A stretch of 64,000 bases of DNA from positions 744,001 to 808,000 of the forward strand of contig NC_014207.1 of NCBI RefSeq assembly GCF_000093025.1, in the 5' to 3' direction. The notes under the pieces are model-generated. The model had not been told where the DNA came from. It was given only the letters and a program-made list of their open reading frames with translations, and did not search any database. Shown here piece after piece: positions 22,685 to 43,019 of this stretch; positions within the stretch are counted from its first letter, which is position 1, and the number at the start of each line of letters is the position of its first letter. Source of the DNA: Methylotenera versatilis 301. Lineage in GTDB: Bacteria > Pseudomonadota > Gammaproteobacteria > Burkholderiales > Methylophilaceae. Made by a program: the position numbers and the translations under genes.

Positions 22685-24145
22685 TTAAGCGACTAACATA
22701 TCTACAAACACATTGACTGGCGTTGCTTCTAGCTTAGTTTGGTCTAAACATAAAGCTAAAATATCCGCCTGTTTTTTTGCATCAAAACGGCGTGCTAAAT
22801 TCACTTGGAATTTTTTCACTAGTTCTGGGATGCCTTGACGGCGACGGCGACGGTGACCGATTGGGTATTCCACGGCGATGTTGTCTGAGCTTGTATGGTC
22901 TTTAAAGAACACTTGAATCGCGTTTGCGATTGAGCGTTTTTCTGGGTTTAGATAATCAGCCGTGTATTCAACTTTTTCTACACATACCATTTTTGCACGA
23001 ATTGCGTCGATGCGTGGGTCTGCCGCAGCTGCATCTTCGTAATCTTGCGCAGTTAAGTTGCCTTTTAGCAAACCAATGGCAGACATGTATTGGATACAGT
23101 GGTCACGGTCAGCTGGGTTATCTAGTGGACCAGTTTTATCGATAATGCGAATCGCTGATTCGTGTGTAGTAATCACGATTTTATCAATTTGTGCGATTTG
23201 CTCTAGTGTTTGAATCTCCTTGCCCACTTGCGCATGTAATTGAATTGCACATTCCACAGCGGTTTGCGCATGGAATTCAGCTGGAAATGAGATTTTAAAC
23301 AATACTTGTTCCATCACGTATGAACCGTAACCACGTTGAAATTTAAATGCGTTGCCCTTAAATAACACATCATAGAAGCCCCATGTTTTGGCGGTCAATG
23401 CTGATGGGTAGCCCATTTCGCCTTGCATGGTCATCCACGCTAATCGAACGGCACGGCTGGTTGCATCGCCTGCCGCCCATGACTTACGTGAGCCAGTATT
23501 CGGTGAGTGGCGGTAAGTACGTAAGCTTTGACCATCTACAAATGCGTTAGAAACTGCGTTAATGATGTCTTCTTTATTACCACCTAGCAGTTTTGTCACT
23601 ACAGCCGTTGAAGCAATTTTCACTAAAATCACATGGTCTAAACCTACGCGGTTAAAGCTGTTTTCTAACGCTAATACGCCTTGAATCTCATGGGCTTTAA
23701 TCATGGCTGTAAGCACGTCTTTGATTGTCAGCGCAGTCTTTCCTTCAGCTACATTTTTACGTGAAATGTAATCAGCAGTCGCTAAAATGCCGCCTAAGTT
23801 ATCTGATGGGTGACCCCATTCAGCGGCTAGCCACGTGTCGTTAAAATCTAACCAGCGTATCATCGCGCCAATGTTGAAAGCCGCTAAAATTGGATCTAAC
23901 TGAAAAGATGTGCCAGGTACTTTTGCACCATTCGGCACTACGGTGCCAGCAATCACTGGGCCTAGTAATTTGGTGCAAGCTGGGTAATCTAAGGCTTCAA
24001 AACCGCAACCTAGTGTATCCATTAAGCAGTTGCGCGCGGTGTCGAATGCTTCGTCTGATTTAATTTCGTAATCAGCCACATAATTGGCGATATCGACAAT
24101 CACTTGGTCTGGTGCAGGGCGTACGTTTGAAATGTGGGCTGACAT
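22685..24145 (-). CDS. prpD: 2-methylcitrate dehydratase PrpD
   Basis: A 486-residue MmgE/PrpD-family enzyme that dehydrates 2-methylcitrate to 2-methyl-cis-aconitate in the methylcitrate cycle. The [10 protein letters not shown] segment, [18 protein letters not shown] and the [14 protein letters not shown] region near the C-terminus match true PrpD, and the length equals the E. coli protein (483). It is the last gene of the leftward operon and is separated from prpC by 131 nt containing a 28-bp perfect palindrome. With PrpD plus the AcnB encoded at 40431, an AcnD/PrpF pair is not needed for this step, and none is seen. Confidence 0.95.
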
Positions 24146-24188
24146 ATTTAGAAAACCTTTATTTGAATGATTTAAATTTTTTATATTT

Positions 24189-24263
24189 CGTCATTCTGAG
24201 CATAGCGAAGAATCCATAACGGTTACTTTTACAACTGGATTCTTCGCTATGCTCAGAATGACG
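24189..24263. repeat. Perfect 28-bp inverted repeat between prpC and prpD
   Basis: Two perfectly complementary 28-base arms (24189-24216 and 24236-24263) flank a 19-nt loop. In RNA this would be a very stable hairpin inside the prpC-prpD intergenic gap. Sequence kinship with the palindromes at 9-40 and 10551-10626 marks it as a dispersed element rather than a dedicated regulatory site. It could attenuate or process the prp transcript. Confidence 0.85.
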
Positions 24264-24276
24264 AGTTTAGATAGAT

Positions 24277-25452
24277 TTATCTTTGGCTTAGCGGCACATA
24301 AGCACGGTTATCTGGGCCAATGTACTCAGCATTTGGGCGAATGATTTTGTTATCAATGCGCTGCTCAATCACATGTGCAACCCAGCCAGTCGTGCGTGAA
24401 ATCACAAAAATCGGGGTGAACATGCCAGTTGGAATACCCATCATGTGGTAGCTGGAGGCGCTATACCAGTCTAGATTTGGGAACATTTTTTTCTCGCGCC
24501 ACATCACTTCTTCAATGCGTGCTGAGACTTCAAAAAGCGTCATATTGCCGGCATCTTCGCATAACTTGCGGCTAACGGCTTTTATTGACTCATTTCGTGG
24601 GTCTGCGATTGTGTAAACGGGATGACCAAAGCCGATAATGATTTCTTTTCGCGCCATGCGCTCTAAAATATCAGCTTCTGCTTCATCGGCATTTTTATAG
24701 CGTTCGATGATTTCCATGGCTGCTTCATTGGCGCCACCATGTTTCGCACCACGTAAAGCGCCAATCGCACCAGTGATGCATGAATACATGTCAGATAATG
24801 TGCCAGCAATCACACGTGCAGTGAAAGTTGATGCATTGAATTCATGCTCTGCATATAACACTAGCGAGGTATTCATCGCGTCTATGTGTAATTGGCTTGG
24901 TGCTTTGCTATGCAGCACATGTAAGAAGTGTGCTGCAATGCTATCGTCGTCAGTTTCCAAATTCACACGTTTGCCATTGTGGCTAAAGTGATACCAGTAG
25001 AGCAAAATTGAGCCAAAACACGAGATTAGTTTGTCGCCTAAATCTTGTGCGGCTTTGGTATTGCGGTCAGCCGCTTCAGGCTCTAAGGTGCCCAGCATGG
25101 CGCAACCTGTGCGCATCACATCCATAGGGTGCGTATTTTTTGGAATTTGCTCCAGCACGGTTTTCAGTGCAGCAGGAATGTCGCGTAGCTTTTTTAGTTT
25201 AGCGTGATAAGCCGAGAGTTCAGTTTTATTCGGCAACTCACCATGAATCAGCAGGTAAGCGACCTCTTCAAAAGTAGCGCTTTTAGCTAGTTCAATAATA
25301 TCGTAACCGCGATAATGTAAATCGTTACCAGTATGCCCAACCGTACAAATGGCAGTGGTACCAGCAGAAACCCCTGCCAGTGCTACGCCTTTTTTCTTTT
25401 TAGGAGCATCGCTGCTCGCTGGTTGAATAGTGGTTTGAGTAGTTGCGTTCAT
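24277..25452 (-). CDS. prpC: 2-methylcitrate synthase PrpC
   Basis: A 391-residue citrate-synthase family enzyme that condenses propionyl-CoA with oxaloacetate. The short length and features such as [11 protein letters not shown], the catalytic [13 protein letters not shown] region and the [13 protein letters not shown] segment with the nearby [12 protein letters not shown] match methylcitrate synthase rather than housekeeping GltA (about 430). It lies 14 nt downstream of prpB. The N-terminal 20 residues are Thr/Lys rich and variable. Confidence 0.94.
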
Positions 25453-25466
25453 GCTACTTTTCTCCT

Positions 25467-26354
25467 TTAAGCTTTGTTTTGATTAAATAGAGCGTCTAAC
25501 TTTTGCTCAAAGGCGTGGTAGCCCAAGTGATCGTAAAGATCCATGCGGGTTTGCATGGTGTCGACTACATTTTTTTGCGTACCGTCATTTTTTACTGCTT
25601 GGTAAACGTTAAGCGCCGCTTGGTTCATCGCGCGGAAAGCTGAAAGTGGATATAGCACCATGCTTACATCCGCCTCGCGTAGCTCATCAACCGTAAATAA
25701 AGGCGTGCTGCCGAATTCGGTAATGTTGGCTAACACAGGCACTTTGACTGCCTCAGCAAATTGCTTGTACATGCTGAGTTCAGTAATTGCTTCTGGGAAA
25801 ATCATATCAGCGCCAGCTTCAGCGCATGCGCATGCGCGGTCGATGGCAGATTGCAAACCTTCCACTGCCAAAGCATCAGTACGCGCCATAATGACGAAAT
25901 CATCGTAAGGTTTGGCATCAACCGCAGCTTTTACGCGATCTACCATTTCTTCTAAGCTGACAATGGCTTTGTTTGGGCGGTGACCACAGCGCTTTGCTGA
26001 AACTTGGTCTTCAATATGCACCGCAGCCGCTCCCGCTTTGGCTATGCTTTTTACGCTGCGAGCGATGTTAAAAGCACCGCCCCAGCCAGTATCAATATCC
26101 ACTAGTAATGGCGTGTCAACGGCATCGGTGATGCGGCGCACGTCAATCAACACATCCTCTAAAGTTGAGATGCCTAAATCAGGCAAGCCAAGTGAGCCTG
26201 CAGCAACGCCGCCACCTGATAGGTAGAGCGCTTTAAAGCCGCTTTGGGTGGCAAGCATGGCGTGGTAGGCATTAATTGCACCTATAATTTGTAGCGGTTT
26301 TTCGGCGCTTAGGGCGGCACGAAATCGTGCCCCTGCTGTGGCTGCTTGTGTCAT
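25467..26354 (-). CDS. prpB: 2-methylisocitrate lyase PrpB
   Basis: A 295-residue isocitrate-lyase superfamily enzyme that splits 2-methylisocitrate to pyruvate and succinate. The catalytic KRCGHR motif, the [10 protein letters not shown] metal-binding segment and [12 protein letters not shown] are intact, and the length matches E. coli PrpB (296). It is the fourth gene of the leftward operon, 43 nt after a CitE-like lyase gene and 14 nt before prpC. Confidence 0.95.
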
Positions 26355-26397: not shown

Positions 26398-27399
26398 TTA
26401 ACTGAAGAAGGCCTGAGTTGCCTCAGCTGGAATCGCCACTTTGGTGAGTTTGGCTTTTTGTAAAATTTCCCAGAAATAACGATAAGTCGCTCTATCGTGA
26501 AGTTCGCCATCGTATTGAATCGGGCCCCAGTCTGCCTTTTGCGCAGCTAGTAGAATATTCGCGCCATCCTGTACTTCGTCGAAGTTAGGCTTCATGGCAT
26601 CGACAATCGCTTCAATCTGCGTTGGGTAAATGCTCCACATACGTAAAAACCCAAATTCGTTGCGTGCGCGTGAAGCGTCTGAGTGCGTAGTTTCTACATT
26701 TTTCAGGTCTAAAGTCACGTTGTGCGCTGGCACTACGCCGTTTGCCAGCGCTGCTGCAACTAACTCTGCTTTCGCTCTTGCCAATAATCGGTGATCAAAC
26801 TGACCTGGACTGCGCATTGCGGAGGCTGGAATCGCGCCATGGTGGCCGCTTACAAAGTCCATTAAACCGAAGTCCAGTACTTGCACCCAAGGCAATGTCG
26901 CGATTTCATGCACGGCTTTTAATGCGCCGTGGGTTTCAATCAGGATATGCACTGGAATCACACGCTCGATGCCATTGAAAGTGGCTATTTTTTGAATGTA
27001 TGCAATCATCTCGCTGGCTTGCGCGTAGCTTGTACATTTTGGAATGGTGATATAGCTTAAAACTTTGCCTGCTCCAGCCACCAAAATATCCACATCTTGT
27101 TTCCAGTAGCTATTGGTGTAGTCGTGAATGCGCGAGCCTGCCATTTTGTGTTTATTGGCGTCGCTTGTTAAAACGCGCACTATCATTTCTGCATGCTCGC
27201 GCTCTTGTCCAGCTTGTGCGCCATCTTCGCAATCGCAAGTGATATCGAATACGGGTCCGACGGTATCTTGCATAGACAAGGCTTTGAGTATTAGCTTTTC
27301 ACTCCCCGCAAAGTGCTCGCATGATGGAATGATAGGAAATGATTTTTCCCCGCCGAATAGAGCGTCTTTAGGGTGAACTAATTGTTGTGTGGTTGTCAT
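26398..27399 (-). CDS. HpcH/HpaI-CitE superfamily CoA-ester lyase (paralogue 2)
   Basis: A 333-residue protein of the CitE/malyl-CoA lyase superfamily. Visible signatures are FDITCDCEDGAQ (equivalent of the DLED motif), the ILIETHGAL metal-ligand Glu and the LDFGLMDFVSG metal-ligand Asp region. Superfamily members cleave malyl-CoA, methylmalyl-CoA or citramalyl-CoA to an acyl-CoA plus glyoxylate or pyruvate. It sits between the Mch-like hydratase and prpB, so cleavage of 3-methylmalyl-CoA to propionyl-CoA and glyoxylate, feeding PrpC, is the most coherent guess. Substrate not proven; it is clearly divergent from the other two CitE-like proteins in the window. Confidence 0.8.
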   Translation of the reverse strand: MTTTQQLVHPKDALFGGEKSFPIIPSCEHFAGSEKLILKALSMQDTVGPVFDITCDCEDGAQAGQEREHAEMIVRVLTSDANKHKMAGSRIHDYTNSYWKQDVDILVAGAGKVLSYITIPKCTSYAQASEMIAYIQKIATFNGIERVIPVHILIETHGALKAVHEIATLPWVQVLDFGLMDFVSGHHGAIPASAMRSPGQFDHRLLARAKAELVAAALANGVVPAHNVTLDLKNVETTHSDASRARNEFGFLRMWSIYPTQIEAIVDAMKPNFDEVQDGANILLAAQKADWGPIQYDGELHDRATYRYFWEILQKAKLTKVAIPAEATQAFFS

Positions 27400-27456: not shown

Positions 27457-28554
27457 TTAATTTGGTTTCCGTGGCATTAGCACGGTGTAATCTAAATCTA
27501 ACACTACGTTCGGGTGGTAAGTCTGTTTACCGTCAGTGGTAATCTGTGTGCTTTCTAGTGCGTCAGCTGGCATGTTTTTTACACCGACCATGCGTAATCT
27601 CAAAGCGCCAACATCGCTGCGATTCGGCACGTCCCATTTATCTAGCACTTCGGTCCATGTGTAAATGGTGTCGTCACCAAATGATGGATTGCAATGTGTA
27701 CCGCCATTAATCGCGACGATGCAAAGCGCGTTTTCTAAGCCATCATTTGACAGCGCACGGCATAATGAAATGATGTGGCCGCCGTACATCAAGCGTCTGC
27801 CAAATGCGGTTTTTTTCATCATCAGATCATCAAAATGTAAGCGTGCATTGTTCTGATATAGCTTAGTAGCAAGTGTGTGGTCGGTATCGCTAATTGTCAT
27901 ACCCGCTGGGTGATTGATGCGCTCACCAATTGCGTAGTCATTCCATAAATACTGACCACCTGTGACTGCAGTATTGAATTTTCTGGCATCCAAAAAGTTA
28001 GGCACGCTCAGTTCTTCAGCAGGTACATGGCTAGGCAAGTTTGGCACAACGGTTTCAGGGGCTGGTGCATCTAAGTTGTTTTTGTGCACCATCACCCAGC
28101 GCACCCATGAAAGCACAGATTGTTGTAATTGGTTGATGGAAACCGAGCGCACATAAACGACGCCAGACTTGCCATTAGAATTTTGTTTCAAGCCAATCAC
28201 AGTTGAAGTGGTGCTGAGCGTATCGCCAATATGTACAGGTTGTAAAAAGCGCACGTCTGCATAACCTAGGTTGGCAACGGCATTCACAGAAATATCAGGT
28301 ACGGTTTTACCGAATGCAATATGAAAGGCTAATAAATCATCTACAGGTCTAGCGTTGTAGCCTAATGATTGAGCAACCGTATCAGCTGAATGCAGTACTT
28401 GGCGTGCGCCTGTGAGTGCGATGTATAGCGCCATTTCACCTTCAGCAATCGTGCGTGGCGTAGCATGATGAATCACTTGGTTGAGGTGAAAATCCTCAAA
28501 AAAGTTGCCCGCATTGATTTTACTTGTAGTCATTTTATTAGTGGTATTAGACAT
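27457..28554 (-). CDS. mch: Mesaconyl-CoA hydratase-like double MaoC protein
   Basis: A 365-residue double-hotdog MaoC-type hydratase. The stretches NAGNFFEDF, HATPRTIAEGE, FGKTVPDISVNAVANLGYAD and the second-half FGRRLMYGGHIISL closely resemble, from memory, mesaconyl-C1-CoA hydratase (Mch) of Rhodobacter, which interconverts mesaconyl-CoA and (2R,3S)-3-methylmalyl-CoA in the ethylmalonyl-CoA pathway. The start overlaps the stop of the upstream CitE-like gene by 8 nt, so both are co-translated. The presence of Mch with prpBC in one operon suggests that methylmalyl-CoA is the propionyl-CoA source. Function is inferred from resemblance; no ethylmalonyl-CoA mutase or crotonyl-CoA carboxylase gene is in the window. 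Confidence 0.85.
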   Translation of the reverse strand: MSNTTNKMTTSKINAGNFFEDFHLNQVIHHATPRTIAEGEMALYIALTGARQVLHSADTVAQSLGYNARPVDDLLAFHIAFGKTVPDISVNAVANLGYADVRFLQPVHIGDTLSTTSTVIGLKQNSNGKSGVVYVRSVSINQLQQSVLSWVRWVMVHKNNLDAPAPETVVPNLPSHVPAEELSVPNFLDARKFNTAVTGGQYLWNDYAIGERINHPAGMTISDTDHTLATKLYQNNARLHFDDLMMKKTAFGRRLMYGGHIISLCRALSNDGLENALCIVAINGGTHCNPSFGDDTIYTWTEVLDKWDVPNRSDVGALRLRMVGVKNMPADALESTQITTDGKQTYHPNVVLDLDYTVLMPRKPN

Positions 28555-29428
28555 GACTTTCTTCCAAAGTCTTAATCATTTCGTTGAGTTTTAATAGTCT
28601 CTCAGCGGCTCTCACATGGTGGCGCTCTACTAATTTATCGTTTACTACAACGGTACCTTTACCTTGTTCATTCGCCTCTTTTAGCGCGGCGATGATTTCG
28701 CGCGCGTGTGACACCTCTGAGGTTTGTGGCGTGTAGGCATCGTTGCTGTAGGCAAGTTGTGCAGGGTGTACTAATGATTTTCCGTCAAAACCCATATCGC
28801 GACCTAAGCGGCATGCATATTCAAAAGAATGCATATTTTTGAAGTCGCTAGTGATGCCATCTACCACTGCGTGACCATAAGCGCGAGCAGCTAAAATCAC
28901 TAATGAAAGTGAAGTTAAAATCGCTGAGCGTTCGTGAGTTACACGCGCATGTAGCTGTGAAATTAAGTCAGATGTCGCCATCACAATGCATACGATGCGA
29001 TCAGAGGCTGCAGCAATTTCTTTCGCATTCAACACCGCAATCGGACTTTCTATCATTACCATAATAGGTAAGTGGCTACCGCCAGCAGCATCAAGTAATG
29101 AAAGCGCGGTTAATACATCTTCGCGAGATTCAATATTGGGAAACAAAACTGCATCTACTTTGGTTTTTGCGATGGCTTTAATATCATCAGGACCCCATTC
29201 TGATATAAGGTCATTCACGCGCACTACGACTTCACGTGAGCCATAGCCGCCTTCATTCACAAAGCGAACTACGTTGTCGCGTGACTCTTCTTTGCGTTCG
29301 ACTAATATAGGGTCACCCAAATCAAGTATGACTGAATCGGCGTGTAACGTCCGCGCACGCTCAAGGTAATGCGTGTTGCAGCCTGGTACGTAGAGCATAG
29401 AGCGCCTAGGGCGAAAATATTGAGCCAT
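28547..29428 (-). CDS. CitE-like CoA-ester lyase (paralogue 1), first gene of leftward operon
   Basis: A 293-residue CitE/malyl-CoA lyase superfamily protein, beginning at the ATG at 29428 (MAQYFRPRRSML) preceded by AAAGG; an in-frame extension to 29497 looks untranslated. RRSMLYVPG at the N-terminus, the IESP metal-binding Glu, the ATSDL Asp and GKSLVHPAQ are typical. The usual DLED segment reads DLGD, losing a conserved acidic residue. It heads the operon with the Mch-like gene, whose start it overlaps. Likely substrates are methylmalyl-CoA, malyl-CoA or citramalyl-CoA. The DLGD change may alter specificity or activity. Confidence 0.8.
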   Translation of the reverse strand: MAQYFRPRRSMLYVPGCNTHYLERARTLHADSVILDLGDPILVERKEESRDNVVRFVNEGGYGSREVVVRVNDLISEWGPDDIKAIAKTKVDAVLFPNIESREDVLTALSLLDAAGGSHLPIMVMIESPIAVLNAKEIAAASDRIVCIVMATSDLISQLHARVTHERSAILTSLSLVILAARAYGHAVVDGITSDFKNMHSFEYACRLGRDMGFDGKSLVHPAQLAYSNDAYTPQTSEVSHAREIIAALKEANEQGKGTVVVNDKLVERHHVRAAERLLKLNEMIKTLEESHV

Positions 29429-29499
29429 TTTGTTACCTTTAGTTTTAATTGTTTTAAAGCTAAGCCGATTATATAGAGAGAAAATAAAAAATGTCAATA

Positions 29500-29526
29500 T
29501 ATATCTTATGTCTTATATAAGATATA
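29500..29526. promoter_or_regulatory. Candidate GntR operator in the divergent promoter
   Basis: A 27-bp palindromic site between the two divergent operons: arms TATATCTTAT (29500-29509) and ATAAGATATA (29517-29526). It also contains the nested 12-bp perfect palindrome TCTTATATAAGA (29511-29522). It lies 72 nt upstream of the leftward CitE-like start and 120 nt upstream of gntR, where a local GntR regulator could control both operons. Binding is inferred from symmetry and position. Confidence 0.65.
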
Positions 29527-29645: not shown

Positions 29646-30383
29646 ATGATAGATAAACACTACAATTCGCCAAGCTATAAGCCTTTATATGATCAGATTA
29701 AAGTGTTGCTTACGCAAAGCTTAATCGGTGGTGAATGGCGCCCAGGTGACATGATTCCTAGCGAGATTGAATTGGCGGGCCGCTATAAGGTGAGTCAAGG
29801 CACAGTAAGAAAAGCCATTGACGCATTGGCTACTGAAAATATCCTTATTCGTCGCCAAGGCAAGGGTACTTTTGTGGCAACGCACAGCGCAGAAGGTATG
29901 AAGTTGCGCTTTTTAAGGCTGACTTCGCAAGATGGGCAAAAAGAGTTGCTGCAAAACGAGTTTATTTCTTGTACCAAAGGCAAAGCTGACGTGCGCATGG
30001 GGCAAATTCTTGATTTAAAAGCAGGCGCATCGACTATAGAAATAAAACGCTTACTTACGTTTTCAGGCAGGCCATTGATTTTTGATCACATTATCGTGCC
30101 CGCGGCGCCATTTAAGGGTCTGAATGGTACACGTGTAGAAGAAAATAATGGTTCGATGTATAGCATGTATGAGTCAGAGTTTGGCGTACGCATGATACGT
30201 GCTGAAGAGCGCCTAAAAGCGGTAGGGGCTAAAGGGGAGGTGGCAAAGGCTTTAGGTTTAAAAGAAGGCGAGCCAATCCTTAGTATAGAGCGTGTTTCAT
30301 TTACTTACGGCGATAAGCCTATGGAATGGCGTTTGGGATTATGCGTAACAGACAACCATCACTACATGAATGAGCTTGAGTAG
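29646..30383 (+). CDS. GntR-family (HutC-type) transcriptional regulator
   Basis: A 245-residue regulator: N-terminal winged HTH (about 10-75, with PSEIELAGRYKVSQGTVRKA) and a C-terminal UTRA-type ligand domain (about 95-240) marking the HutC subgroup. It is the first gene of the rightward operon and is divergent from the CitE/mch/prp operon, with a strong palindrome between. The expected ligand is an intermediate such as methylcitrate, methylisocitrate or another organic acid. It replaces the sigma54-dependent PrpR that controls prp genes in enterics. Ligand unknown. Confidence 0.88.
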   Translation: MIDKHYNSPSYKPLYDQIKVLLTQSLIGGEWRPGDMIPSEIELAGRYKVSQGTVRKAIDALATENILIRRQGKGTFVATHSAEGMKLRFLRLTSQDGQKELLQNEFISCTKGKADVRMGQILDLKAGASTIEIKRLLTFSGRPLIFDHIIVPAAPFKGLNGTRVEENNGSMYSMYESEFGVRMIRAEERLKAVGAKGEVAKALGLKEGEPILSIERVSFTYGDKPMEWRLGLCVTDNHHYMNELE

Positions 30384-31756: not shown

Positions 31757-31785
31757 GCACAACAAGCTCAATAAGAATCTTGAAT

Positions 31786-32211
31786 ATGCAAAATAATCAA
31801 CAAAAAAATAGTCAAAAAACAAAGCTAAGACCCGGTCAAATGAGCCGGCCTAAAAACTTGAACCTATTTACCATTCGCTTGCCCATTAATGCTTTGGTCT
31901 CGATTTTACATAGAGCCACAGGTTGTGTTTTATTTTTAATCTTGCCAGTCATTTTGCTGTTATTACAGTTCTCACTTAATTCGGCAGAGCACTATGAAGC
32001 AGTGATTGCGATTTTGCACTCGCCTTTAATAAAGATCATGCTTCTTGGCTTAGCGTGGGCTTTTTTTCATCACTTTTTTGCGGGTATTCGTCACCTTGCA
32101 ATGGACGTGCATTGGATGACCACGTTGATGAAGGCTCGTTATACCAGCAAGGTTGTGCTCGTGCTAGGTGCGCTAGCTACCCTTGTATTAGCCGTGAAAA
32201 TATGGATTTAA
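31786..32211 (+). CDS. sdhC: Succinate dehydrogenase cytochrome b556 subunit
   Basis: A 141-residue three-helix membrane anchor of complex II. SILHRATG carries the quinone-site Ser and Arg, and HHFFAGIRHLAMD contains the haem-ligand histidine region. An ATG at 31786 is taken as the start; a second ATG at 31843 just before the conserved RPKNLNLFTIRLP segment is possible. It lies 29 nt after the malic enzyme gene and 6 nt before sdhD. Confidence 0.93.
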   Translation: MQNNQQKNSQKTKLRPGQMSRPKNLNLFTIRLPINALVSILHRATGCVLFLILPVILLLLQFSLNSAEHYEAVIAILHSPLIKIMLLGLAWAFFHHFFAGIRHLAMDVHWMTTLMKARYTSKVVLVLGALATLVLAVKIWI

Positions 32212-32217
32212 AACCTT

Positions 32218-32562: not shown

Positions 32563-32636
32563 TTGCTACTAGTTTAATCAAAGCGTTATTAATTTAAAAA
32601 ATTGCATATTTAAAATTTACTGAAGGTTAATTGGTT

Positions 32637-34400: not shown

Positions 34401-34438
34401 ACTCACCACAGAATTTATTAGAAATTAGAGACGACAAT

Positions 34439-35179: not shown

Positions 35180-35184
35180 GCTAA

Positions 35185-35475
35185 ATGACTGAGGCTAACG
35201 GTATGACAGATGAAGAAGTGCGGCGTCTAAGTTGGCGTTGTCGCCGAGGTTTGCTGGAGCTAGATATTGTTTTGCAGCGCTTTTCTGAAAAGCACCTTGC
35301 AACACTCACGAAACCAGAGTTGTTGGCATTTGATAGCTTATTAGATTTACCAGATAACGAGTTTTTAGATGTAGTGACCTCAAGAATAAAGTTTGCAGAA
35401 GTGAAAGTATTAAACGACAAGCAGTTAGATGCAGACGCAATGAAAACAGTGCTGACCAAATTAAGCGGTCATTAA
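35185..35475 (+). CDS. sdhE: SdhE, FAD assembly factor for succinate dehydrogenase
   Basis: A 96-residue all-helical protein with the diagnostic RRGLLELD motif (RGxxE) required to promote covalent flavinylation of SdhA. An ATG at 35185 gives 96 residues; a second ATG at 35203 (MTDEEVRRL) is an equally plausible start. In many betaproteobacteria citrate synthase follows sdhE; here a CitE-like lyase follows. Confidence 0.92.
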   Translation: MTEANGMTDEEVRRLSWRCRRGLLELDIVLQRFSEKHLATLTKPELLAFDSLLDLPDNEFLDVVTSRIKFAEVKVLNDKQLDADAMKTVLTKLSGH

Positions 35476-35517: not shown

Positions 35518-36645
35518 ATGAATAGTCCTGGAAAAATAAAGTGTTATACAAATAGCAATATGCTTGGCGAGAATTGGCCTGGAATACAACTTTACTATCC
35601 GCCTGTGAAGTATTCGCCAGCGCAGGGCATTTACGAAGATGTCACGCAAGCTGCGGCGCGTATGAAAAAACATGCACATCATACCAATGCGCATACTTTG
35701 ATTTTTGACTTGGAAGATGGCTGTCGTCAAAAAGAGATGAGTCGTGATCTATTGCGCCAAGAGCTGCCTGAGCTTCGTAAAGTCAACCCGAGCGTCACTA
35801 TTGCCATTCGATCAAACTCATTCCGTACCGATGAATACGAGCTGGATATGCAGCTTGTCAGCGATATGTCTGATTGCATCGACGTTGTGATGCTTGCCAA
35901 GGCTGGGGAGGCTTATGGCGCGGCTGAAGTGCGTGATTTATCTAGCTTGTTACTCGAGCTGAATCCAAATATTACGATACAGCCGATTATCGAGCATCCG
36001 AAGTCATTGAAAATTGCTCCGGAACTGATGCAGTACAGCACGGTAAAGCATGTCGTGTTTGGTATTCATGACTTTTCAAAAGCGATGGGCATACACATCA
36101 CGCCAGAACACTGGATTGAAGAGTTGCAGTTCTATATGAACCAACTGATGTTTGAAGCGCGTATTGCGGGTAAAGGCGTAATTGGCGGCGTTGAAACCTT
36201 GATCGGTTCTAATATCATGCCTGAGAAATTTGTCGAGCCGCATGATGTTCGCCGCTGGTTGGATTTGCATGGCGATTATGAGTCACGCGTTGTCTATAAA
36301 CATGCTTGCCAAGAGGCTGCGATGGGCTTAACGGGTAAACAAGTGATACACCCAGGCCATATTCATTTATGTAAAACCGCTTACACACCTTCACCCACTG
36401 AAGTGAATCAGAAAGTACGGATCTTGAAAGCGGCAATTGAAGCAGATGCCTTGCACGGCGGCGCGATTAAGTTTGAAGGTGAAATGTTAGATCCACCAAT
36501 GTTTGGTAAAGCTTTACAAACATTGTTGAGAGCACACGCTTTACGTGCGCTAAACCAAGACGATATGGATTTCGCCTTACAAGTCCTGGAATTGTTGCCA
36601 GCACAGGTGATACGCCAAAACTGGCCATATGGCGTTCTACTATAA
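35518..36645 (+). CDS. CitE-like CoA-ester lyase (paralogue 3)
   Basis: A 375-residue member of the HpcH/HpaI-CitE superfamily, longer than typical CitE (about 300). LIFDLEDGCRQKE, the IEHPKSL metal-site Glu, the VFGIHDFSKAMG Asp and GKQVIHPGHIHL are recognisable; a C-terminal extension of about 60 residues is extra. It lies between sdhE and the acyl-CoA ligase and is co-directional with a mesaconase-like fumarase, so citramalyl-CoA or malyl-CoA is the favoured substrate. It is clearly not a recent duplicate of the other two CitE-like genes. Confidence 0.78.
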   Translation: MNSPGKIKCYTNSNMLGENWPGIQLYYPPVKYSPAQGIYEDVTQAAARMKKHAHHTNAHTLIFDLEDGCRQKEMSRDLLRQELPELRKVNPSVTIAIRSNSFRTDEYELDMQLVSDMSDCIDVVMLAKAGEAYGAAEVRDLSSLLLELNPNITIQPIIEHPKSLKIAPELMQYSTVKHVVFGIHDFSKAMGIHITPEHWIEELQFYMNQLMFEARIAGKGVIGGVETLIGSNIMPEKFVEPHDVRRWLDLHGDYESRVVYKHACQEAAMGLTGKQVIHPGHIHLCKTAYTPSPTEVNQKVRILKAAIEADALHGGAIKFEGEMLDPPMFGKALQTLLRAHALRALNQDDMDFALQVLELLPAQVIRQNWPYGVLL

Positions 36646-36704: not shown

Positions 36705-38336
36705 ATGCAAAAACTAGAACAGTTTCCTGAGTGGGAGTGGAGTGTTCCAAAACACTTTAATATCGGCGCGGCATGTACTGATAAGCACTTGAATACGCCA
36801 GCAGCCAAAGCGATTGCGATGATTGTAGAAGATGATGCACAAGGCACTTCGCAAATCACTTTTGAGCAATTAGCTAAACGTACCGATCAGTTTGCGCAGT
36901 TACTTAGAAACTTACATGTTGATGCGGGTGAGCGCGTGTTGATTCGCTTGCCGAACAGCTTGGACTATCCAACAGCCTTTTTAGGAGCGATGAAACGTGG
37001 TGCGATTTCAGTGCCAACTTCAACCCTGCTCACTGCTGAAGAAGTTGCTTATTTGGCAAAAGACTCTGGCGCGGCAGTGTTGGTGACAGACAAAGCTGCA
37101 TGGCCATCACTGCAAGGTCATCTCTCAGGTTTGCCCAACTTGAAGCACGTATTTTTGTCAGGCGTTGGTGATATTACCGACCACGTAGCACTCAATGTGG
37201 TTGATTTAGATACGGAGCTTGCAGCGATTAAAGCATGCGAACCAGCACATTTAACGGCAGCAGATGACCCTGCTTATTTGGTATACACCTCCGGTACAAC
37301 AGGCTACCCAAAAGGTGTGTTGCATGCGCATCGTGCCTTGATAGGTCGTGAACCAGCTTCTAAATACTGGTTCAATTTTGATGCAAATTCGCAAGACCGC
37401 ATCATGCATTCAGGCAAGTTTAATTGGACTTATGTATTAGGTTCAGGCTTGATGGATCCGCTCTATTTGGGCAAAACCGTCATCGTACATGAAGGCAAAA
37501 ATGACGCTGATTTATGGACGCGCTTGATTGCTAAACATTCCGCCACGATTTTTGTGGGCGTACCAACCATTTATCGCCAAATTATTCAGAAATCTACAGC
37601 TAAGCAAGCCGACGTGCCAAGCTTGCGCCACTGTATGAGTGCGGGTGAGCATCTGTCTGATGAAGTGCTGCAACAATGGCGCGAGCGTTTTGGTGCAGAT
37701 ATTTACGAAGCGGTTGGCATGAGCGAGTTTTCATATTACTTAAGCCAAAGTATTTTCCGTCCGATACGTGCTGGTTCGGCGGGCTTTCCGCAACCTGGTC
37801 ATGCGATTAAACTGCTGAATCCTGAAACCTTAGAAGAGGTTGCACAAGGTGAAGAAGGTATGATCAGCGTGCCGGAGTCAGACCCCGGTTTATTCCTACG
37901 CTATTGGAATCTAGATGAAGAAACCGCGAAATATAAACACGATGGCTGGTTCTTCTCAGGTGACTATGCTCGATATGATGAGGATGGCTATATTTGGTTC
38001 TTAGGTCGTAAAGACGACATTATTAAGAGCTTTGGTTATCGCGTATCGCCTTATGAAATTGAGCGTGTTTATAAATCTCATCCAGCAGTGGCAGATTGCG
38101 CAGCGGTGGGTGAAGAGCTTGAAAAAGACAAGTTACTAGTGGTGACTTACGTGATTCTGCAACCCAATTCAGAAGTCACTGCGGATGAGCTAATGGCTTT
38201 TGGTAAACAGCATCTAGCAGCCTATAAAGCACCAAAAACGGTTTACTTGACTAAAGATTTTCCACGTACGAAAAATGGTAAGATTTTGCGCAAAGACATT
38301 AACAATAAAATTGCATATGCAAAATCAGCCAGATAG
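36705..38336 (+). CDS. AMP-forming acyl-CoA ligase, substrate unknown
   Basis: A 543-residue ANL-superfamily ligase. The P-loop-like YTSGTTGYPKG near residue 195, the hinge WFFSGDYARYDEDGY and the catalytic lysine in KNGKILRKD are intact. The length and the pattern are nearer benzoate-CoA ligase or medium-chain acyl-CoA synthetases than propionyl-CoA synthetase PrpE (about 630). It lies between a CitE-like lyase and a class I fumarase, so an organic acid such as mesaconate or citramalate is a reasonable guess. The substrate cannot be read from the sequence. Confidence 0.82.
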   Translation: MQKLEQFPEWEWSVPKHFNIGAACTDKHLNTPAAKAIAMIVEDDAQGTSQITFEQLAKRTDQFAQLLRNLHVDAGERVLIRLPNSLDYPTAFLGAMKRGAISVPTSTLLTAEEVAYLAKDSGAAVLVTDKAAWPSLQGHLSGLPNLKHVFLSGVGDITDHVALNVVDLDTELAAIKACEPAHLTAADDPAYLVYTSGTTGYPKGVLHAHRALIGREPASKYWFNFDANSQDRIMHSGKFNWTYVLGSGLMDPLYLGKTVIVHEGKNDADLWTRLIAKHSATIFVGVPTIYRQIIQKSTAKQADVPSLRHCMSAGEHLSDEVLQQWRERFGADIYEAVGMSEFSYYLSQSIFRPIRAGSAGFPQPGHAIKLLNPETLEEVAQGEEGMISVPESDPGLFLRYWNLDEETAKYKHDGWFFSGDYARYDEDGYIWFLGRKDDIIKSFGYRVSPYEIERVYKSHPAVADCAAVGEELEKDKLLVVTYVILQPNSEVTADELMAFGKQHLAAYKAPKTVYLTKDFPRTKNGKILRKDINNKIAYAKSAR

Positions 38337-38351: not shown

Positions 38352-39881
38352 ATGACAACGATACGCCAAGAGGATTTTATTCAAAGCATTGCTGATGCGC
38401 TGCAATATATATCTTACTACCACCCTCTAGATTATATTCAGGCATTGGGCCGTGCTTACGAGGCGGAGCAATCTCCTGCCGCTAAAGACGCGATAGCGCA
38501 GATTTTAACTAACTCGCGTATGTGTGCTGAAGGCAAGCGCCCAATATGCCAAGATACTGGCATTGTTGTTGCTTTCGTTAAAATAGGCATGAATGTTCAA
38601 TGGGATGCAACACTGGATATTGAGCAGATGGTAAACGAAGGTGTGCACCGTGCGTATCTGTTGCCAGAGAATAAATTACGTGCTTCTATAGTGAGCGACC
38701 CCGCTGGGAAGCGCGCCAATACTAAAGATAACACCCCTGCGGTGGTGCACGTTTCTTTAGTGGCGGGTGATAAGATTGATGTACAAATTGCTGCAAAAGG
38801 CGGCGGTTCTGAGAATAAAGCCAAGTTGGCAATGCTCAATCCGAATGACAGCATAGTCGATTGGATTTTGGAAGTTGTGCCCCAAATGGGTGCGGGCTGG
38901 TGTCCGCCAGGTATGTTGGGTATTGGTATAGGTGGTAGTGCAGAGAAGGCTATGTTGTTGGCGAAAGAGTCTTTGATGGCGCCGATTGATATGCACGAAC
39001 TTAAAGCTAGCGGTGCCAAAAACAGAATTGAAGAACTGCGTTTAGAAATTTTTGAAAAGGTGAATAACTTAGGTATAGGCGCACAAGGTCTCGGTGGCTT
39101 GGCAACGGTGTTAGATGTGAAGATTTTAGACTACCCAACCCATGCAGCTAGCTTACCTGTAGCCATAATTCCTAACTGTGCCGCCACGCGTCATGTGCAT
39201 TTTGAGTTGGATGGTAGTGGTGTAGCTGAATTAGAAGCGCCTAACTTGAGTGATTGGCCTGACGTACACTGGGTACCAAGTGAAGCTTCGCTAAGAGTCA
39301 ATTTAGATACTATTACTCAAGCGGATATTCAAGCTTGGAAACCAGGACAGACATTATTGTTGAATGGAAAATTGCTTACAGGCCGAGATGCCGCGCATAA
39401 GCGGATTGCAACGATGTTGGCTAAAGGTGAAAAACTGCCTGTAGATTTTAAAAATCGCTTCATTTATTACGTAGGCCCTGTTGATGCTGTACGTGATGAA
39501 GCAGTAGGACCCGCTGGACCAACTACTGCAACGCGTATGGATAGTTTTACTGAAATGATGTTAAGCGACGTTGGCCTGCTAGGCATGGTGGGTAAAGCTG
39601 AACGTGGCGATGAAACTATCGCTACTATAGCAAAGCATAAGTCTGTGTATTTAACCGCGGTAGGCGGTGCGGCTTATTTGGTGAGTAAAGCCATTAAAAA
39701 AGCCGAAGTGCTGGCATTTGAAGATTTAGGTATGGAAGCGATTTATGAGTTCACCGTGCAAGATATGCCTGTAACGGTCGCGGTGGATAGCAAAGGTAAT
39801 TCAGTACACACTACTGGCCCAGCCGAGTGGAAAGAGAAGATTGCGCAGCATAAGACAATAGAAATTCACTCTGTGCCGTAG
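38352..39881 (+). CDS. Class I (Fe-S) fumarate hydratase, possible mesaconase
   Basis: A 509-residue single-chain [4Fe-4S] hydratase joining the alpha and beta fumarase domains. Three candidate cluster cysteines are visible: C66 in CQDTG, C184 in GWCPPGMLG and C276 in NCAATRH. It interconverts fumarate and malate. Class I fumarases also hydrate mesaconate to (S)-citramalate, and a Burkholderia xenovorans enzyme of this length class is established as a mesaconase. Here it lies 15 nt after an acyl-CoA ligase and in the same cluster as CitE-like lyases and Mch, so a dual fumarase/mesaconase role is plausible. Confidence 0.9.
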   Translation: MTTIRQEDFIQSIADALQYISYYHPLDYIQALGRAYEAEQSPAAKDAIAQILTNSRMCAEGKRPICQDTGIVVAFVKIGMNVQWDATLDIEQMVNEGVHRAYLLPENKLRASIVSDPAGKRANTKDNTPAVVHVSLVAGDKIDVQIAAKGGGSENKAKLAMLNPNDSIVDWILEVVPQMGAGWCPPGMLGIGIGGSAEKAMLLAKESLMAPIDMHELKASGAKNRIEELRLEIFEKVNNLGIGAQGLGGLATVLDVKILDYPTHAASLPVAIIPNCAATRHVHFELDGSGVAELEAPNLSDWPDVHWVPSEASLRVNLDTITQADIQAWKPGQTLLLNGKLLTGRDAAHKRIATMLAKGEKLPVDFKNRFIYYVGPVDAVRDEAVGPAGPTTATRMDSFTEMMLSDVGLLGMVGKAERGDETIATIAKHKSVYLTAVGGAAYLVSKAIKKAEVLAFEDLGMEAIYEFTVQDMPVTVAVDSKGNSVHTTGPAEWKEKIAQHKTIEIHSVP

Positions 39882-39982
39882 CTTTTGTGTCCTCTGTTTG
39901 TAACTTGGGTCACATGAGCATCGTATTATTTGCGTTAATATCTGTCAGAATTGATGATAGATATTTAGAGAGTGCAGATAAA

Positions 39983-40306
39983 ATGCTAAAACTTTTGTTA
40001 CGTAGTGCTGTGTTGCTTGGCTTGGTTATGAATATATCAATTGCAAGCGCAGATGATGTACTGATTTATTTAGTCGACAGTGATGACGGCTATTCTGGCC
40101 CAACTGTAGAAGATAATATTGCAGCCATGGATACCGATAAAAATGGCTTTGCTGACGTCACTGAGGTCCGGGCATTTTTAGCACTAAAAAACGGATCTGA
40201 ATATGAAAAAGAGATTCTAGATAGGTGGCAATTGCGTAGCCAAGGTAAGAGTTGCACGCTACCGCCAGATGACAAGTTATTTAATCAAACGAACGCTATT
40301 AACTAA
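39983..40306 (+). CDS. Small exported EF-hand protein
   Basis: A 107-residue protein. The ATG at 39983 gives a signal peptide (LLLRSAVLLGLVM, cleavage after about ASA at 21-23); the frame extends 32 codons upstream but lacks sense there. A 12-residue EF-hand loop at 50-61 (DTDKNGFADVTE) has D50, D52, N54 and E61 in calcium-binding positions. Function unknown; it could be a periplasmic calcium-binding protein. Its place between fumarase and acnB is odd for a central-metabolism cluster. Confidence 0.7.
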   Translation: MLKLLLRSAVLLGLVMNISIASADDVLIYLVDSDDGYSGPTVEDNIAAMDTDKNGFADVTEVRAFLALKNGSEYEKEILDRWQLRSQGKSCTLPPDDKLFNQTNAIN

Positions 40307-40430
40307 ACTAACTGGCTTAATTTTGAAGTTTTACAAATGTGAAATTTTTCATGATTTAGGCTGGTTTATAATTTAACCCTATTTTTATAACAGCATTTTT
40401 AAACAGTCACTATTTATTAAAAGAGCCACT

Positions 40431-43019
40431 ATGTTAAAAGCCTATCAAGCCCATGTTGCAGAACGCAGCGCTATTCAACTTCCACCATTACCATTGTCAG
40501 CTGAACAAGTTGCGCAAGTTGTTGAGCTACTTAAAGCCCCACCTGCAGGTGAAGCTGAGACATTACTTGATTTAATTGCTAATCGCACACCCGCAGGTGT
40601 GGATCAAGCCGCTTATGTGAAAGCCGCTTTTCTTGCAGATATTGCCAAAGGCATCGCTAAATCACCATTAATTTCACCAGAAAAAGCGGTGGAGTTATTA
40701 GGCACTATGCTTGGCGGTTACAACGTACAGGCTTTAGTTGCTTTACTCGAGACGCCGATGGCTGCTCATGCAGTCAAAGCTTTAAGTAGCACAATTTTGA
40801 TGTTCGATGCATTCCATGATGTAGATGTATTAATGAAAGCTGGTAACGCTCACGCTAAAAAGCTGATAGAAAGTTGGGCGAATGCCGAGTGGTTTACCAA
40901 TGCACCTGTATTGGCTAAAGAAATCAAAATGGTCGTATTCAAGGTTGATGGTGAAACTAATACCGATGACTTAAGCCCTGCACAAGATGCATGGAGCCGC
41001 CCAGATATTCCACTGCATGCTAAAGCCATGCTGATCAATAAAATGCCTGATGGTTTGAAACTGATTGATACCTTGAAACAAAAAGGTTTGCCGTTGGCTT
41101 ATGTGGGCGATGTGGTAGGCACCGGGTCATCACGCAAATCTGCGATTAACTCAGTGCAATGGTTTATGGGCAATGATATTCCTAACATCCCAAACAAACG
41201 CACTGGTGGCGTGATTTTAGGCGCTAAAATCGCACCGATTTTCTTTAATACAGCAGAAGACTCCGGCGCTTTGCCGATTCAATGTGATGTGTCTAAGTTG
41301 AATATGGGCGATGTGATTGTAATCAAACCGTATGAAGGTAAAGTGCTCAATGAAGCGGGCGATGTGCTTTCAACATTTGAATTAAATCCAGTGACCATGC
41401 CAGACGAAGTGCGCGCAGGTGGCCGTATTCCATTGATTATTGGTCGTGGTTTAACTTCAAATGCGCGTAAAGCATTAGGTTTACCTGAAACAACTGCATT
41501 TATTAAAGCCGCACCAGCAGTCAGTTCAACTAAAGGCTATACGCTTGCACAAAAAATGGTAGGGCGTGCTTGTGGTTTGCCAGAAGGCGTTGGCGTGCGC
41601 CCTAATACTTATTGCGAGCCAAAAGCCACAACGGTCGGTTCGCAAGATACTACGGGGGGTATGACGCGCGATGAATTGAAAGAATTGGCTTGTTTAGGTT
41701 TTAGCTCTGACTTGGTCATGCAAAGCTTCTGCCACACAGCAGCTTATCCAAAACCAGTGGATATTAAATTGCAACATAGCTTGCCAGAGTTTATGTCTAG
41801 CCGTGGCGGCGTTTCATTGCGCCCAGGTGACGGCGTGATTCACTCATGGTTAAACCGTTTAATCTTGCCAGATACTGTAGGTACAGGCGGCGATTCACAT
41901 ACACGTTTCCCGATTGGCATTTCATTCCCAGCAGGTTCTGGTTTAGTGGCGTTTGCAGCCGCGACAGGTGCGATGCCTTTGGATATGCCAGAGTCAGTAT
42001 TAGTGCGCTTTAAAGGCACAATGCAGCCAGGTATTACCTTGCGTGACTTGGTGAACGCGATTCCTTATGCCGCCATCCAAGAAGGCAATTTAACGGTTGG
42101 CAAACAAGGTAAAAAGAACGTATTTAACGGCCGAATCTTAGAAATCGAAGGTTTGCCAGATTTGAAAGTAGAGCAAGCCTTTGAGTTTGCCGATGCTTCA
42201 GCTGAGCGTTCTGCGAATGGCTGTACCGTACTTTTAAACAAAGAGCCTGTGATTGAGTTCTTAAATTCAAATATCGTATTGATGCAAAACATGATTGAGA
42301 ACGGCTACGAAGATGCACGCACCTTGCAACGCCGTATTGAAAATATGCAAGCATGGCTAGCAAAACCTGAATTACTTACACCAGATGCAGATGCAGAATA
42401 CGCACACGTGATTGAAATCGATTTAAACGAAATCAAAGAGCCGCTAGTGGCTTGCCCGAATGACCCTGATGATATCAAGCCGTTATCAGCTGTTGTTGGC
42501 GATAAGATTGATGAGGTGTTTATCGGTAGCTGTATGACTAATATTGGTCATTACCGCGCTGCGGCTAAAGTGTTAGAAGGTTCAGGCAGCATTCCAACGC
42601 GTTTATGGATTGCCCCGCCAACACGCATGGATGAAGCCCAATTGCGTGATGAAGGTGTGTATTCAACCTTCGGCGTAGCGGGTGCGCGTACTGAAATCCC
42701 AGGTTGTTCATTATGTATGGGTAATCAGGCACGCGTGGCGGATAAAGCGACGGTGTTTTCAACCAGTACACGTAACTTTGATAACCGCATGGGTAAAGAT
42801 GCGCGTGTTTACTTGGGCTCAGCTGAATTAGCCGCAGTGTGTGCGAAGCTAGGTCGTATGCCATCACATGCTGAGTATTTGGAAACTGTGGGTAATAAAT
42901 TGGCCAACACTGCGGAAATTTACAAATATCTAAATTTCGACCAAATGACTGAGTATAAAGCGGCTTTGGATACCTTAAGTTCAGGTAAAAAAGTGATTCC
43001 AATCGCAGAAGTGGTTTAG
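40431..43019 (+). CDS. acnB: Aconitase B / 2-methylisocitrate dehydratase
   Basis: An 862-residue AcnB with its N-terminal HEAT-like and swivel domains. The [16 protein letters not shown] loop, the [11 protein letters not shown] segment and the cluster motifs [13 protein letters not shown] and [12 protein letters not shown] are intact; length equals E. coli AcnB (865). It hydrates cis-aconitate and, in the methylcitrate cycle, 2-methyl-cis-aconitate to 2-methylisocitrate. Its place at the end of the rightward arm completes the route with PrpC, PrpD and PrpB. A TATAAT-like element at 40367-40372 suggests a separate promoter. Confidence 0.96.

Follow-up and report, generated by a model that had tools for sequence, protein, structure and literature searches.

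A methylcitrate-cycle gene cluster of Methylotenera versatilis 301 and its possible role as a substitute for the isocitrate lyase shunt

Which metabolite is handled by the "methylcitric acid cycle" cluster of Methylotenera? We examined this question in a stretch of 64,000 nucleotides from Methylotenera versatilis 301 (the window; positions 744001–808000 of contig C1 of the 3.06 Mb one-contig genome, G000), where the cluster spans window positions 22685–43019. Coordinates are window positions unless a contig is given; G labels denote genomes and L labels fetched loci or stretches (L064, for example, is the contig of G001, a Methylotenera sp. of the same genus as the window). The cluster itself is published: prpCBD, cyl1, maoC, cyl2, gntR, mdh, sdhABCD, cyl3, prpE, fum and can are listed as methylcitric acid cycle genes in PMC4109929, and by gene list it is the same cluster that is treated in PMC3728764 and PMC6794327. 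It is highly expressed in situ, with gntR among the most over-expressed genes in two Methylotenera, and the metabolite it handles is stated to be unknown (PMC3728764). In the accessible parts of these three papers, cyl1–3, maoC and "prpE" are given no pathway role.

We find that the cluster is best explained as two functional modules under one GntR regulator. The first would combine the methylcitrate cycle with succinate dehydrogenase (SDH), fumarase and malic enzyme, and the second (module 2) would be a C5-dicarboxylyl-CoA unit composed of citE3, an AMP-forming ligase, citE2, mch and citE1, sometimes joined by a class I fumarase. We tentatively propose, at somewhat less than an even chance, that module 2 works with the methylcitrate cycle, in the direction called forward below, as a substitute for the isocitrate lyase shunt. 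The pathway idea is already known from the citramalate cycle of 1997 and from Arcobacter butzleri in 2007; what appears to be new, judged from sequence, is that this pathway is connected with the Methylophilaceae cluster, that the cluster divides into two modules, how widely module 2 is spread and that CitE2 is given another role. A literature search, made largely without subscription papers, found no link of this cluster to a citramalate-type route.

Cluster architecture and its spread

Open reading frames (ORFs) and profile searches recovered all genes named in a preliminary description of this DNA, arranged around one GntR regulator; the sdh names come from reading and from the gene list in the accessible part of PMC4109929, not from a profile search. 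The minus-strand arm consists of prpD, prpC, prpB, citE1, mch and citE2, and the plus-strand arm of the GntR gene, malic enzyme, sdhC-D-A-B-E, citE3, the AMP-forming ligase, class I fumarase, a small ORF and acnB. In the named collection, Methylophilus and other Methylophilaceae are the close relatives of the window genome. Among 20 stretches fetched around mch matches, 17 come from the same genus, and all of these show the order throughout the part they cover; G003 (L037) has about 2.7 kb between the ligase and the fumarase. Such an arrangement is far from what chance would give, since all 17 keep the order and other families, as well as Campylobacterota, also carry the five-gene part.

The window proteins were mapped onto 80 named loci and further stretches, several of which repeat a genome or are short pieces. 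With organism names taken from the record titles, module 2 occurs without prp or sdh in the stretches fetched from Thiobacillus (L063), Tepidiphilus (L065), Gallionella (L057 and L060, with gntR), L071, L074, Sulfurospirillum (L077), Arcobacter and relatives (L105, L115, L124, L134) and a gammaproteobacterial locus (L114), and also in G050 (in the order citE1-mch-citE2-lig-citE3), G117, G135 and G264. Two loci titled Methylophaga (L059, L061) carry module 2 with gntR, malic enzyme and prp, and no sdh. A class I fumarase lies beside module 2 in L063, L065, L074, L115, L124 and L134 and further off in L077, and is not within the stretch in L048, L057, L071 and L114. The ligase (at least 30% of lig) is present in all 51 fetched stretches having a full citE3, and of 104 stretches with mch, 51 also have citE1 beside it. 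When 377 class members were drawn evenly, without regard to mch, five proved to carry citE3 (the window genome, G117, G135, G198 and G264); in the last four, all five module-2 genes lie within about 8 kb, and G198 is the genome of L059.

Within the genus, mch, prpB and citE3, though not the ligase, were scored genome-wide as part of a set of 61 relatives. The genus set comprises 37 members including the window genome, 17 of them at least 98% complete, and in these 17 the three genes are all-or-none (all three in 13, none in four). The 20 less complete members contain all three in 13 cases, none in two and a mixture in five (G006, G009, G014, G031, G034); in G034, a contig starts inside citE1, at the expected place of mch. 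In the order sample beyond the genus, genomes with prpB but no citE3 are common, as expected since the methylcitrate cycle exists on its own. The co-occurrence proposed as a check in the preliminary description is thus borne out in the genus, whereas three cases outside it, taken up below, have no adjoining citE3 and ligase.

Two side observations concern related loci. In alphaproteobacterial loci (L075, L079, L083, L084, L099, L103, L108 and others), the genes for Mch and a CitE2-type protein also stand only a few kb from sdh, so this neighborhood is not peculiar to the cluster. A stretch titled Candidatus Methylopumilus universalis (L066) carries the cluster; the methylcitrate pathway is given as absent from all Ca. 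Methylopumilus strains in the accessible part of PMC6794327, and the bin may be misnamed.

Proposed route and the enzymes that would carry it

In the proposed route, CitE3 would condense acetyl-CoA and pyruvate to (S)-citramalyl-CoA, and a thioesterase-type CitE2 would hydrolyze this product to citramalate, pulling the unfavorable condensation. The class I fumarase would convert citramalate to mesaconate, the AMP-forming ligase would activate mesaconate to mesaconyl-C1-CoA, Mch would hydrate the latter to β-methylmalyl-CoA, and CitE1 would split it into propionyl-CoA and glyoxylate. Through the methylcitrate cycle (PrpC, PrpD, AcnB, PrpB), propionyl-CoA and oxaloacetate would yield pyruvate and succinate, and pyruvate would be regained. 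The sum, acetyl-CoA + oxaloacetate + ATP + 2 H2O → glyoxylate + succinate + CoA + AMP + PPi, would equal the isocitrate lyase shunt plus one ATP. Glyoxylate and acetyl-CoA could then give malate by a CitE lyase followed by CitE2, comparable to the two paralogous enzymes of Rhodobacter sphaeroides, and Mqo or malic enzyme would take malate onward. The joined route from acetyl-CoA and pyruvate through C5 acids to glyoxylate, propionyl-CoA and the methylcitrate cycle, as first drawn in the preliminary description, is coherent; the substrates of CitE1–3 and of the ligase, the mesaconase role and the direction are what we infer.

Several known systems resemble this scheme in part. The second cycle of the 3-hydroxypropionate bicycle of Chloroflexus shares an Mch relative, CitE-superfamily lyases and the end compounds, but there CoA is moved within mesaconyl-CoA (Mct) and one trifunctional lyase acts, whereas the window cluster would work through free acids, using a ligase and a fumarase, and has three CitE-like proteins. 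The ethylmalonyl-CoA pathway of R. sphaeroides shares Mch and a CitE2-type protein, and differs in that its mesaconyl-CoA derives from crotonyl-CoA. The haloarchaeal methylaspartate cycle, also free of isocitrate lyase, has mesaconate, mesaconyl-CoA, methylmalyl-CoA and glyoxylate plus propionyl-CoA in common with the scheme, but obtains mesaconate from glutamate and CoA by transfer from succinyl-CoA. An earlier precedent is the citramalate cycle that Ivanovsky proposed in 1997 for Rhodospirillum rubrum, later doubted in that organism according to PMC8307300: it likewise runs from acetyl-CoA and pyruvate through citramalate, mesaconate, mesaconyl-CoA and methylmalyl-CoA to glyoxylate and propionyl-CoA, in a host without isocitrate lyase, as is the window genome. 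In that cycle, propionyl-CoA passes through succinyl-CoA, whereas here the methylcitrate cycle would return pyruvate directly, and the accessible part of PMC8307300 names no gene cluster for it in purple bacteria. For A. butzleri, a module-2 pathway was proposed in 2007 for ab1917–ab1921 (PMC2147049), with the same five-gene module and a fumarase interconverting glyoxylate plus propionyl-CoA and pyruvate plus acetyl-CoA, with mesaconate and citramalate as intermediates. In that organism, ligase and CitE domain form one fused protein (AB1918), the prp genes lie elsewhere and use AcnD/PrpF, and any of three CitE-like proteins is taken as a possible lyase; the part of that paper available to us makes no link to Methylophilaceae.

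The mch product (27457–28554, minus strand; PF19315 above cut-off) is predicted by homology to be an Mch-type protein, a relative of mesaconyl-C1-CoA (2-methylfumaryl-CoA) hydratase. It matched the solved structure 4E3E, a MaoC domain protein dehydratase with a double hotdog fold, over its full length (436 bits, residues 11–363), and 8HGN, a β-methylmalyl-CoA dehydratase, with 373 bits, which agrees with the initial reading of it as an Mch-like hydratase. We take 4E3E to be the Chloroflexus Mch; it and a Chloroflexaceae row branch inside the family tree of Mch relatives (63 rows). The window proteins score far below the cut-offs of the haloarchaeal Mch and MCL models.

Three CitE-like proteins are encoded. 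CitE1 (26398–27399, minus strand), a candidate β-methylmalyl-CoA (or malyl-CoA) lyase, has as its nearest solved structures 3QQW (521 bits) and 3R4I (375 bits), which bear only the label (putative) citrate lyase. CitE3 (35518–36645, plus strand) is divergent, with a PF03328 score of 42.5 bits, above the cut-off, and a best matched stretch against solved chains of only about 75–83 residues; it is the candidate (S)-citramalyl-CoA lyase. In R. sphaeroides MCL numbering, the catalytic set Asp42, Glu44, Asp45, Arg76, Glu141, Asp168 and Asp299 is intact in 48/48 CitE1 and 45/45 CitE3 sequences, three genomes occurring twice in each set.

CitE2 (28547–29428, minus strand; the start is best taken as ATG 29428 rather than TTG 29497) departs from this pattern: in the window protein, Glu268 replaces the catalytic Asp299 and Gly38 the conserved Glu44. 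Glu stands at position 299 in 78 of 87 aligned CitE2 sequences, and according to section 13 of PMC3832036 it marks proteins that group with the (3S)-malyl-CoA thioesterase (Mcl2) of R. sphaeroides; this mark was judged from the published description. CitE2-like proteins from other kinds of loci carry both Glu44 and Glu299 (37/37). Among unfused module-2 copies, Glu299 occurs in 36 of 39 and Gln in the other three, while Gly44 occurs in 31 of 39; Gly44 is found also in three Methylophilaceae stretches cut before citE3. Since the window CitE2 does not keep the Glu44/Asp45 pair, we do not file it as a member of the Mcl2 group. The six ligase-fused copies (L077, L105, L114, L115, L124, L134) retain Asp299 but have all lost the metal ligand Asp168, and in them the lyase fold is apparently kept for a non-lyase job. 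Of the three CitE-like lyases originally described, CitE1 and CitE3 therefore retain complete catalytic sets and CitE2 does not. It is probably not an ordinary lyase; a citramalyl-/malyl-CoA thioesterase is our best guess and loss of catalysis the alternative. Given the thioesterase-group change from Asp to Glu, CitE2, instead of acting as a third lyase, may release the CoA, which makes it a candidate for a gene that the preliminary description had not seen.

The AMP-forming acyl-CoA ligase (36705–38336, plus strand; PF00501/PF13193) is a candidate mesaconate:CoA or citramalate:CoA ligase and is probably the "prpE" of PMC4109929. Its YTSGTTG and GK motifs are kept in 44/44 sequences, and its nearest structures are benzoate-CoA ligases (225 bits), which are not informative on the substrate. 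The published name (PMC4109929) raises the question of whether the cluster simply serves propionate use, with the ligase as a propionyl-CoA synthetase (PrpE) feeding the methylcitrate cycle and the CitE and Mch proteins as accessories or for glyoxylate recycling. The methylcitrate cycle genes do share the cluster, and propionyl-CoA is also a substrate of methylmalyl-CoA lyases. However, the ligase tracks citE3, citE2 and mch rather than prp and is present with them in prp-free stretches; acetate-CoA ligase models stayed below their cut-offs, and no PrpE model was among the best 25 of 107 matches. Moreover, in Arcobacter, Sulfurospirillum and L114, the ligase frame has 839–848 codons and continues through the citE2 part as a fusion. 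Together, these observations make propionate use quite improbable as the purpose of the cluster. A CitE3-ligase fusion considered in G058 was rejected on our reading of the frames: its 934-codon ligase frame extends upstream past citE3, which has its own frame of 382 codons.

The fumarase (38352–39881, plus strand; PF05681 and PF05683 above cut-off) is a class I [4Fe-4S] enzyme whose cysteine triad (Cys 66, 184 and 276) is kept in 22/22 aligned sequences. The class I assignment of the preliminary description holds; its "mesaconase type" is something the sequence does not reveal, and a mesaconase role is possible. No class II FumC exceeded the cut-off among the 15 Methylophilaceae searched, which gave only weak superfamily matches. 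Class II fumarase is above cut-off in four of 28 searched (G050, G058, G061, G067) and strong but below it in six further rows (G047, G066, G135, G264 and G198/G069, the last two being one genome).

Another explanation would be that the cluster simply breaks down C5 acids from outside the cell, such as mesaconate, citramalate or itaconate relatives. These would enter by fumarase and ligase, to be split by CitE3 into acetyl-CoA and pyruvate or by Mch and CitE1 into propionyl-CoA and glyoxylate followed by the methylcitrate cycle. Burkholderia xenovorans offers a parallel, with a class I fumarase for mesaconate followed by a CoA-transferase and citramalyl-CoA lyase (PMC4682846, as far as accessible). 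Expression points the same way, through the in situ signal in Methylotenera and through induction in OM43: in strain NB0046, the methylcitrate genes rise on dissolved organic matter, as does the neighboring HpcH/HpaI and CoA-ligase pair NB46_00665/00666, approximately tenfold over a nutrient-depleted culture and 2–2.5-fold over a vitamin culture (PMC5120137, accessible part); the gene order in L119 suggests that this pair is citE3-lig. Nevertheless, the module is retained in lithoautotrophs, and the itaconate degradation set (Ict-Ich-Ccl) has no match here above cut-off: the RipB/Ich model NF038241 gave 106 bits with the Mch protein against a cut-off of 340, and the RipC/Ccl model NF038242 gave 51, 126 and 48 bits with CitE1, CitE2 and CitE3, respectively, against 375. 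The window cluster also contains no transporter gene, a weak argument because, among the flanking frames at 14 loci, a few look like transporters by eye (L048, L057, L114). We regard catabolism of external C5 acids as improbable.

PrpD (2-methylcitrate dehydratase, 22685–24145, minus strand; NF006943 883 bits, TIGR02330 851 bits), PrpC (2-methylcitrate synthase/citrate synthase, 24277–25452, minus strand; NF009006 677 bits) and PrpB (methylisocitrate lyase, 25467–26354, minus strand; NF008455 542 bits, TIGR02317 431 bits) each exceed the NCBIfam equivalog cut-offs, and with the aconitase/2-methylisocitrate dehydratase AcnB (40431–43019, plus strand; PF06434, PF11791 and PF00330 above cut-off) the methylcitrate cycle is represented. 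The sdhC-D-A-B-E genes occupy 31780–35475 on the plus strand (31780–32211, 32218–32562, 32631–34400, 34439–35179 and 35185–35475). The single-domain malic enzyme (30548–31756, plus strand; start chosen by eye at the ATG following a TTG at 30539) is probably the "mdh" of PMC4109929; it matched NF009501 with 531 bits over residues 4–399, below the cut-off of 1178 of that longer model.

Direction of the route and genomic context

The forward direction is favored because an AMP-forming ligase would set the direction from the free acid to its thioester, and a 3-hydroxyacyl-type thioesterase that from citramalyl-CoA to citramalate. If the ligase took citramalate instead, the direction would be reversed. 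In that case, propionyl-CoA and glyoxylate would be joined to β-methylmalyl-CoA, Mch would dehydrate this to mesaconyl-CoA, CoA would be released, the fumarase would hydrate mesaconate to citramalate, the ligase would activate citramalate to citramalyl-CoA, and CitE3 would cleave the latter into acetyl-CoA and pyruvate, amounting to a free-acid version of the second cycle of the 3-hydroxypropionate bicycle and a means of disposing of propionyl-CoA and glyoxylate. Several hosts are Calvin-cycle lithoautotrophs, which would make glyoxylate by photorespiration. The known trifunctional lyase cleaves citramalyl-CoA well and forms it only at high pyruvate (PMC3832036, section 14), and this is the direction suggested by the authors for A. 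butzleri in the accessible part of PMC2147049. On the other hand, a mesaconyl-CoA thioesterase would be needed, but the known CitE2-group enzyme hydrolyzes a 3-hydroxyacyl-CoA; a supply of propionyl-CoA would also be required, and the methylcitrate genes in the cluster would be left unexplained, competing for propionyl-CoA unless run backwards. We consider the reverse direction less likely than the forward one, though a real possibility.

The forward route as a shunt substitute is consistent with what the window genome contains. The only match to isocitrate lyase there is partial and lies at prpB, with no full-length gene in the genome, and neither malate synthase nor the E1 component of 2-oxoglutarate dehydrogenase (2-OGDH) was found in it. 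Among 20 chosen genomes, 18 gave only such a partial isocitrate lyase match (about positions 150–250), G047 and G058 having the full-length gene; malate synthase was present only in G047, G058 and G067. 2-OGDH E1 was not found in 15 of 24 genomes, including all 11 Methylophilaceae, and was present in nine. The accessible part of PMC6794327 likewise reports Methylophilaceae to be without the glyoxylate shunt, the serine cycle and the ethylmalonyl-CoA pathway, in contrast to PMC11978286, where the serine pathway is listed in Methylotenera. A full-length Mqo is encoded elsewhere in the window genome and in 14 of 15 Methylophilaceae tested (it is in two pieces in the fragmented G030), and Methylophilaceae often use Mqo (PMC5120137). 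Oxaloacetate can therefore be made from malate, a step for which the preliminary description had seen no gene. Its suggestion of a glyoxylate-shunt replacement agrees with the missing enzymes in the window genome and is at odds with G058, which has cluster parts and both shunt enzymes. The rise of the OM43 genes on dissolved organic matter and the conserved palindrome described below, with Gallionella among its carriers, also count in favor of the two-module explanation.

Beyond the window genome, 21 of 22 distinct citE3 genomes (G069 and G198, whose coordinates agree, entering as one) have no full-length isocitrate lyase, and G058 has both, so that replacement of isocitrate lyase wherever the module occurs was not used as proof; the association has p near 0.17, a hand estimate with about 11 lineages taken as independent. 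At E 1e-30, isocitrate lyase was found in 99 of 377 class members, and G117, G135, G198 and G264 do not belong to these. Module 2 as a general substitute for a missing 2-OGDH was rejected: several of its hosts have this enzyme, so the module does not track a broken Krebs cycle.

A number of observations weigh against the forward route. The substrates rest on inference throughout, and methylotrophs using the ribulose monophosphate (RuMP) cycle would have no obvious reason to assimilate acetyl-CoA. Position 167, adjoining the metal ligand, is Met in 48/48 CitE1 and His in 45/45 CitE3 sequences (and Ser in the window CitE2), whereas Ala167 is fully conserved in both MCL clusters, and larger residues there in malate synthases likely block propionyl-CoA binding (PMC3832036). 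CitE1 and CitE3 are therefore not filed as MCL and are only proposed to act alike. CitE2 could be inactive, since the window protein lacks the superfamily-conserved Glu44 and the six fused forms lack Asp168, and the cluster fumarase may be just the housekeeping enzyme of the cell, given that no class II FumC exceeds the cut-off in Methylophilaceae. Three cases beyond the genus (G047, G058, L097) retain prp, mch and sdh in one cluster but have no citE3 and ligase adjoining it: in G047 and G058, prpDCB-citE1-mch is accompanied by sdh and, after sdhE, by a second, PrpC-like gene (29–30% identity). In G058, fum, lig and citE3 stand at a separate place (L144), so that cluster parts in two places coexist with isocitrate lyase and malate synthase, which makes this genome the most useful comparison for what the module contributes. 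The near-complete G023, G029, G030 and G032, of the same genus, have none of prpB, mch and citE3. Finally, absence of isocitrate lyase is weak evidence when just 99 of 377 class members have the gene, and 2-OGDH is present in Thiobacillus, Gallionella, Tepidiphilus, G050, G117, G135 and G264.

Taken to its full extent, the proposal would read as follows. One regulon in supposed obligate methylotrophs would encode a citramalate-methylcitrate cycle as a complete, ATP-driven way around isocitrate lyase; this cycle, with SDH, fumarase, pyruvate dehydrogenase and either Mqo or malic enzyme, would let cells without 2-OGDH both assimilate and fully respire acetyl-CoA. CitE2 would be a lyase repurposed as a citramalyl-/malyl-CoA thioesterase that pulls an uphill condensation, and the same five-gene core would provide Thiobacillus, Gallionella, Tepidiphilus and Campylobacterota with a route of central carbon metabolism that has gone unrecognized. 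That all of this holds together seems rather unlikely. The forward route nevertheless offers a concrete answer to the metabolite question left in the accessible part of PMC3728764: the methylcitrate genes would serve internally made propionyl-CoA and not only external propionate. If true, the citramalate cycle of 1997 would gain a demonstrated gene set, and the view of Methylotenera-type bacteria as strict methylotrophs would be challenged.

Regulation and neighboring features

The regulator (29646–30383, plus strand) is a GntR/UTRA protein, with PF00392 and PF07702 above cut-off. The divergent promoter region contains the palindrome TCTTATATAAGA at 29511–29522, the one perfect site in the window. 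It is present in 32/32 citE2-gntR intergenic regions (the window and Gallionella included, three genomes occurring twice), with a second half-site in 30 of the 32, and is probably the GntR operator. A sigma-70-like promoter of the citE2 operon lies at 29468–29497 on the minus strand (TTGACA-18-TATAAT, 12/12 consensus positions); as the promoter scan returned four sites against 3.3 expected in shuffles, it counts as a consensus match only.

The only second perfect TCTTATATAAGA in the genome (L148, G000:C1:1412906-1412917) lies about 285 bases upstream of mqo, where it forms the center of a longer palindrome that closely follows an upstream gene. In 16 mqo upstream regions, the site was perfect in the window genome and G018 and had one mismatch in G003 and G027, while the other 12 (G007, G011, G013, G036, two Methylophilus, OM43, Gallionella and four genomes without the cluster) had no match within two mismatches. 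Membership of mqo in the regulon was rejected, and this site is probably a terminator hairpin. A one-mismatch site, TTTTATATAAGACATAAG (L151, G000:C1:2395662-2395673), stands before a gene reading like fructose-bisphosphate aldolase; it is possibly a second GntR target, or chance. One-mismatch sites number five in the genome against 14 for the reversed control pattern, and since the control gives more, such sites may be chance.

Between the fumarase and acnB, the small ORF at 39887–40306 includes an EF-hand-like stretch, DTDKNGFADVTE. It had no Pfam or PADLOC match and is present in most genus stretches reaching that far, at 42–96% identity. Elsewhere in the window, positions 8037–9407 encode, by reading, an FAD-linked oxidase resembling glycolate/D-lactate dehydrogenase (GlcD), adjoining lipoamide dehydrogenase, that could make glyoxylate. 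Reading of 51282–64000 suggested a type I secretion ABC transporter, an HlyD-like protein, a LuxR-type regulator, an EAL/HAMP (LapD-like) protein and a LapG-like protease, an assemblage that we take to resemble a LapA-type giant adhesin system. The stretch following the LapG-like protease is higher in GC content, reaching 0.533 at 60–64 kb of the window.

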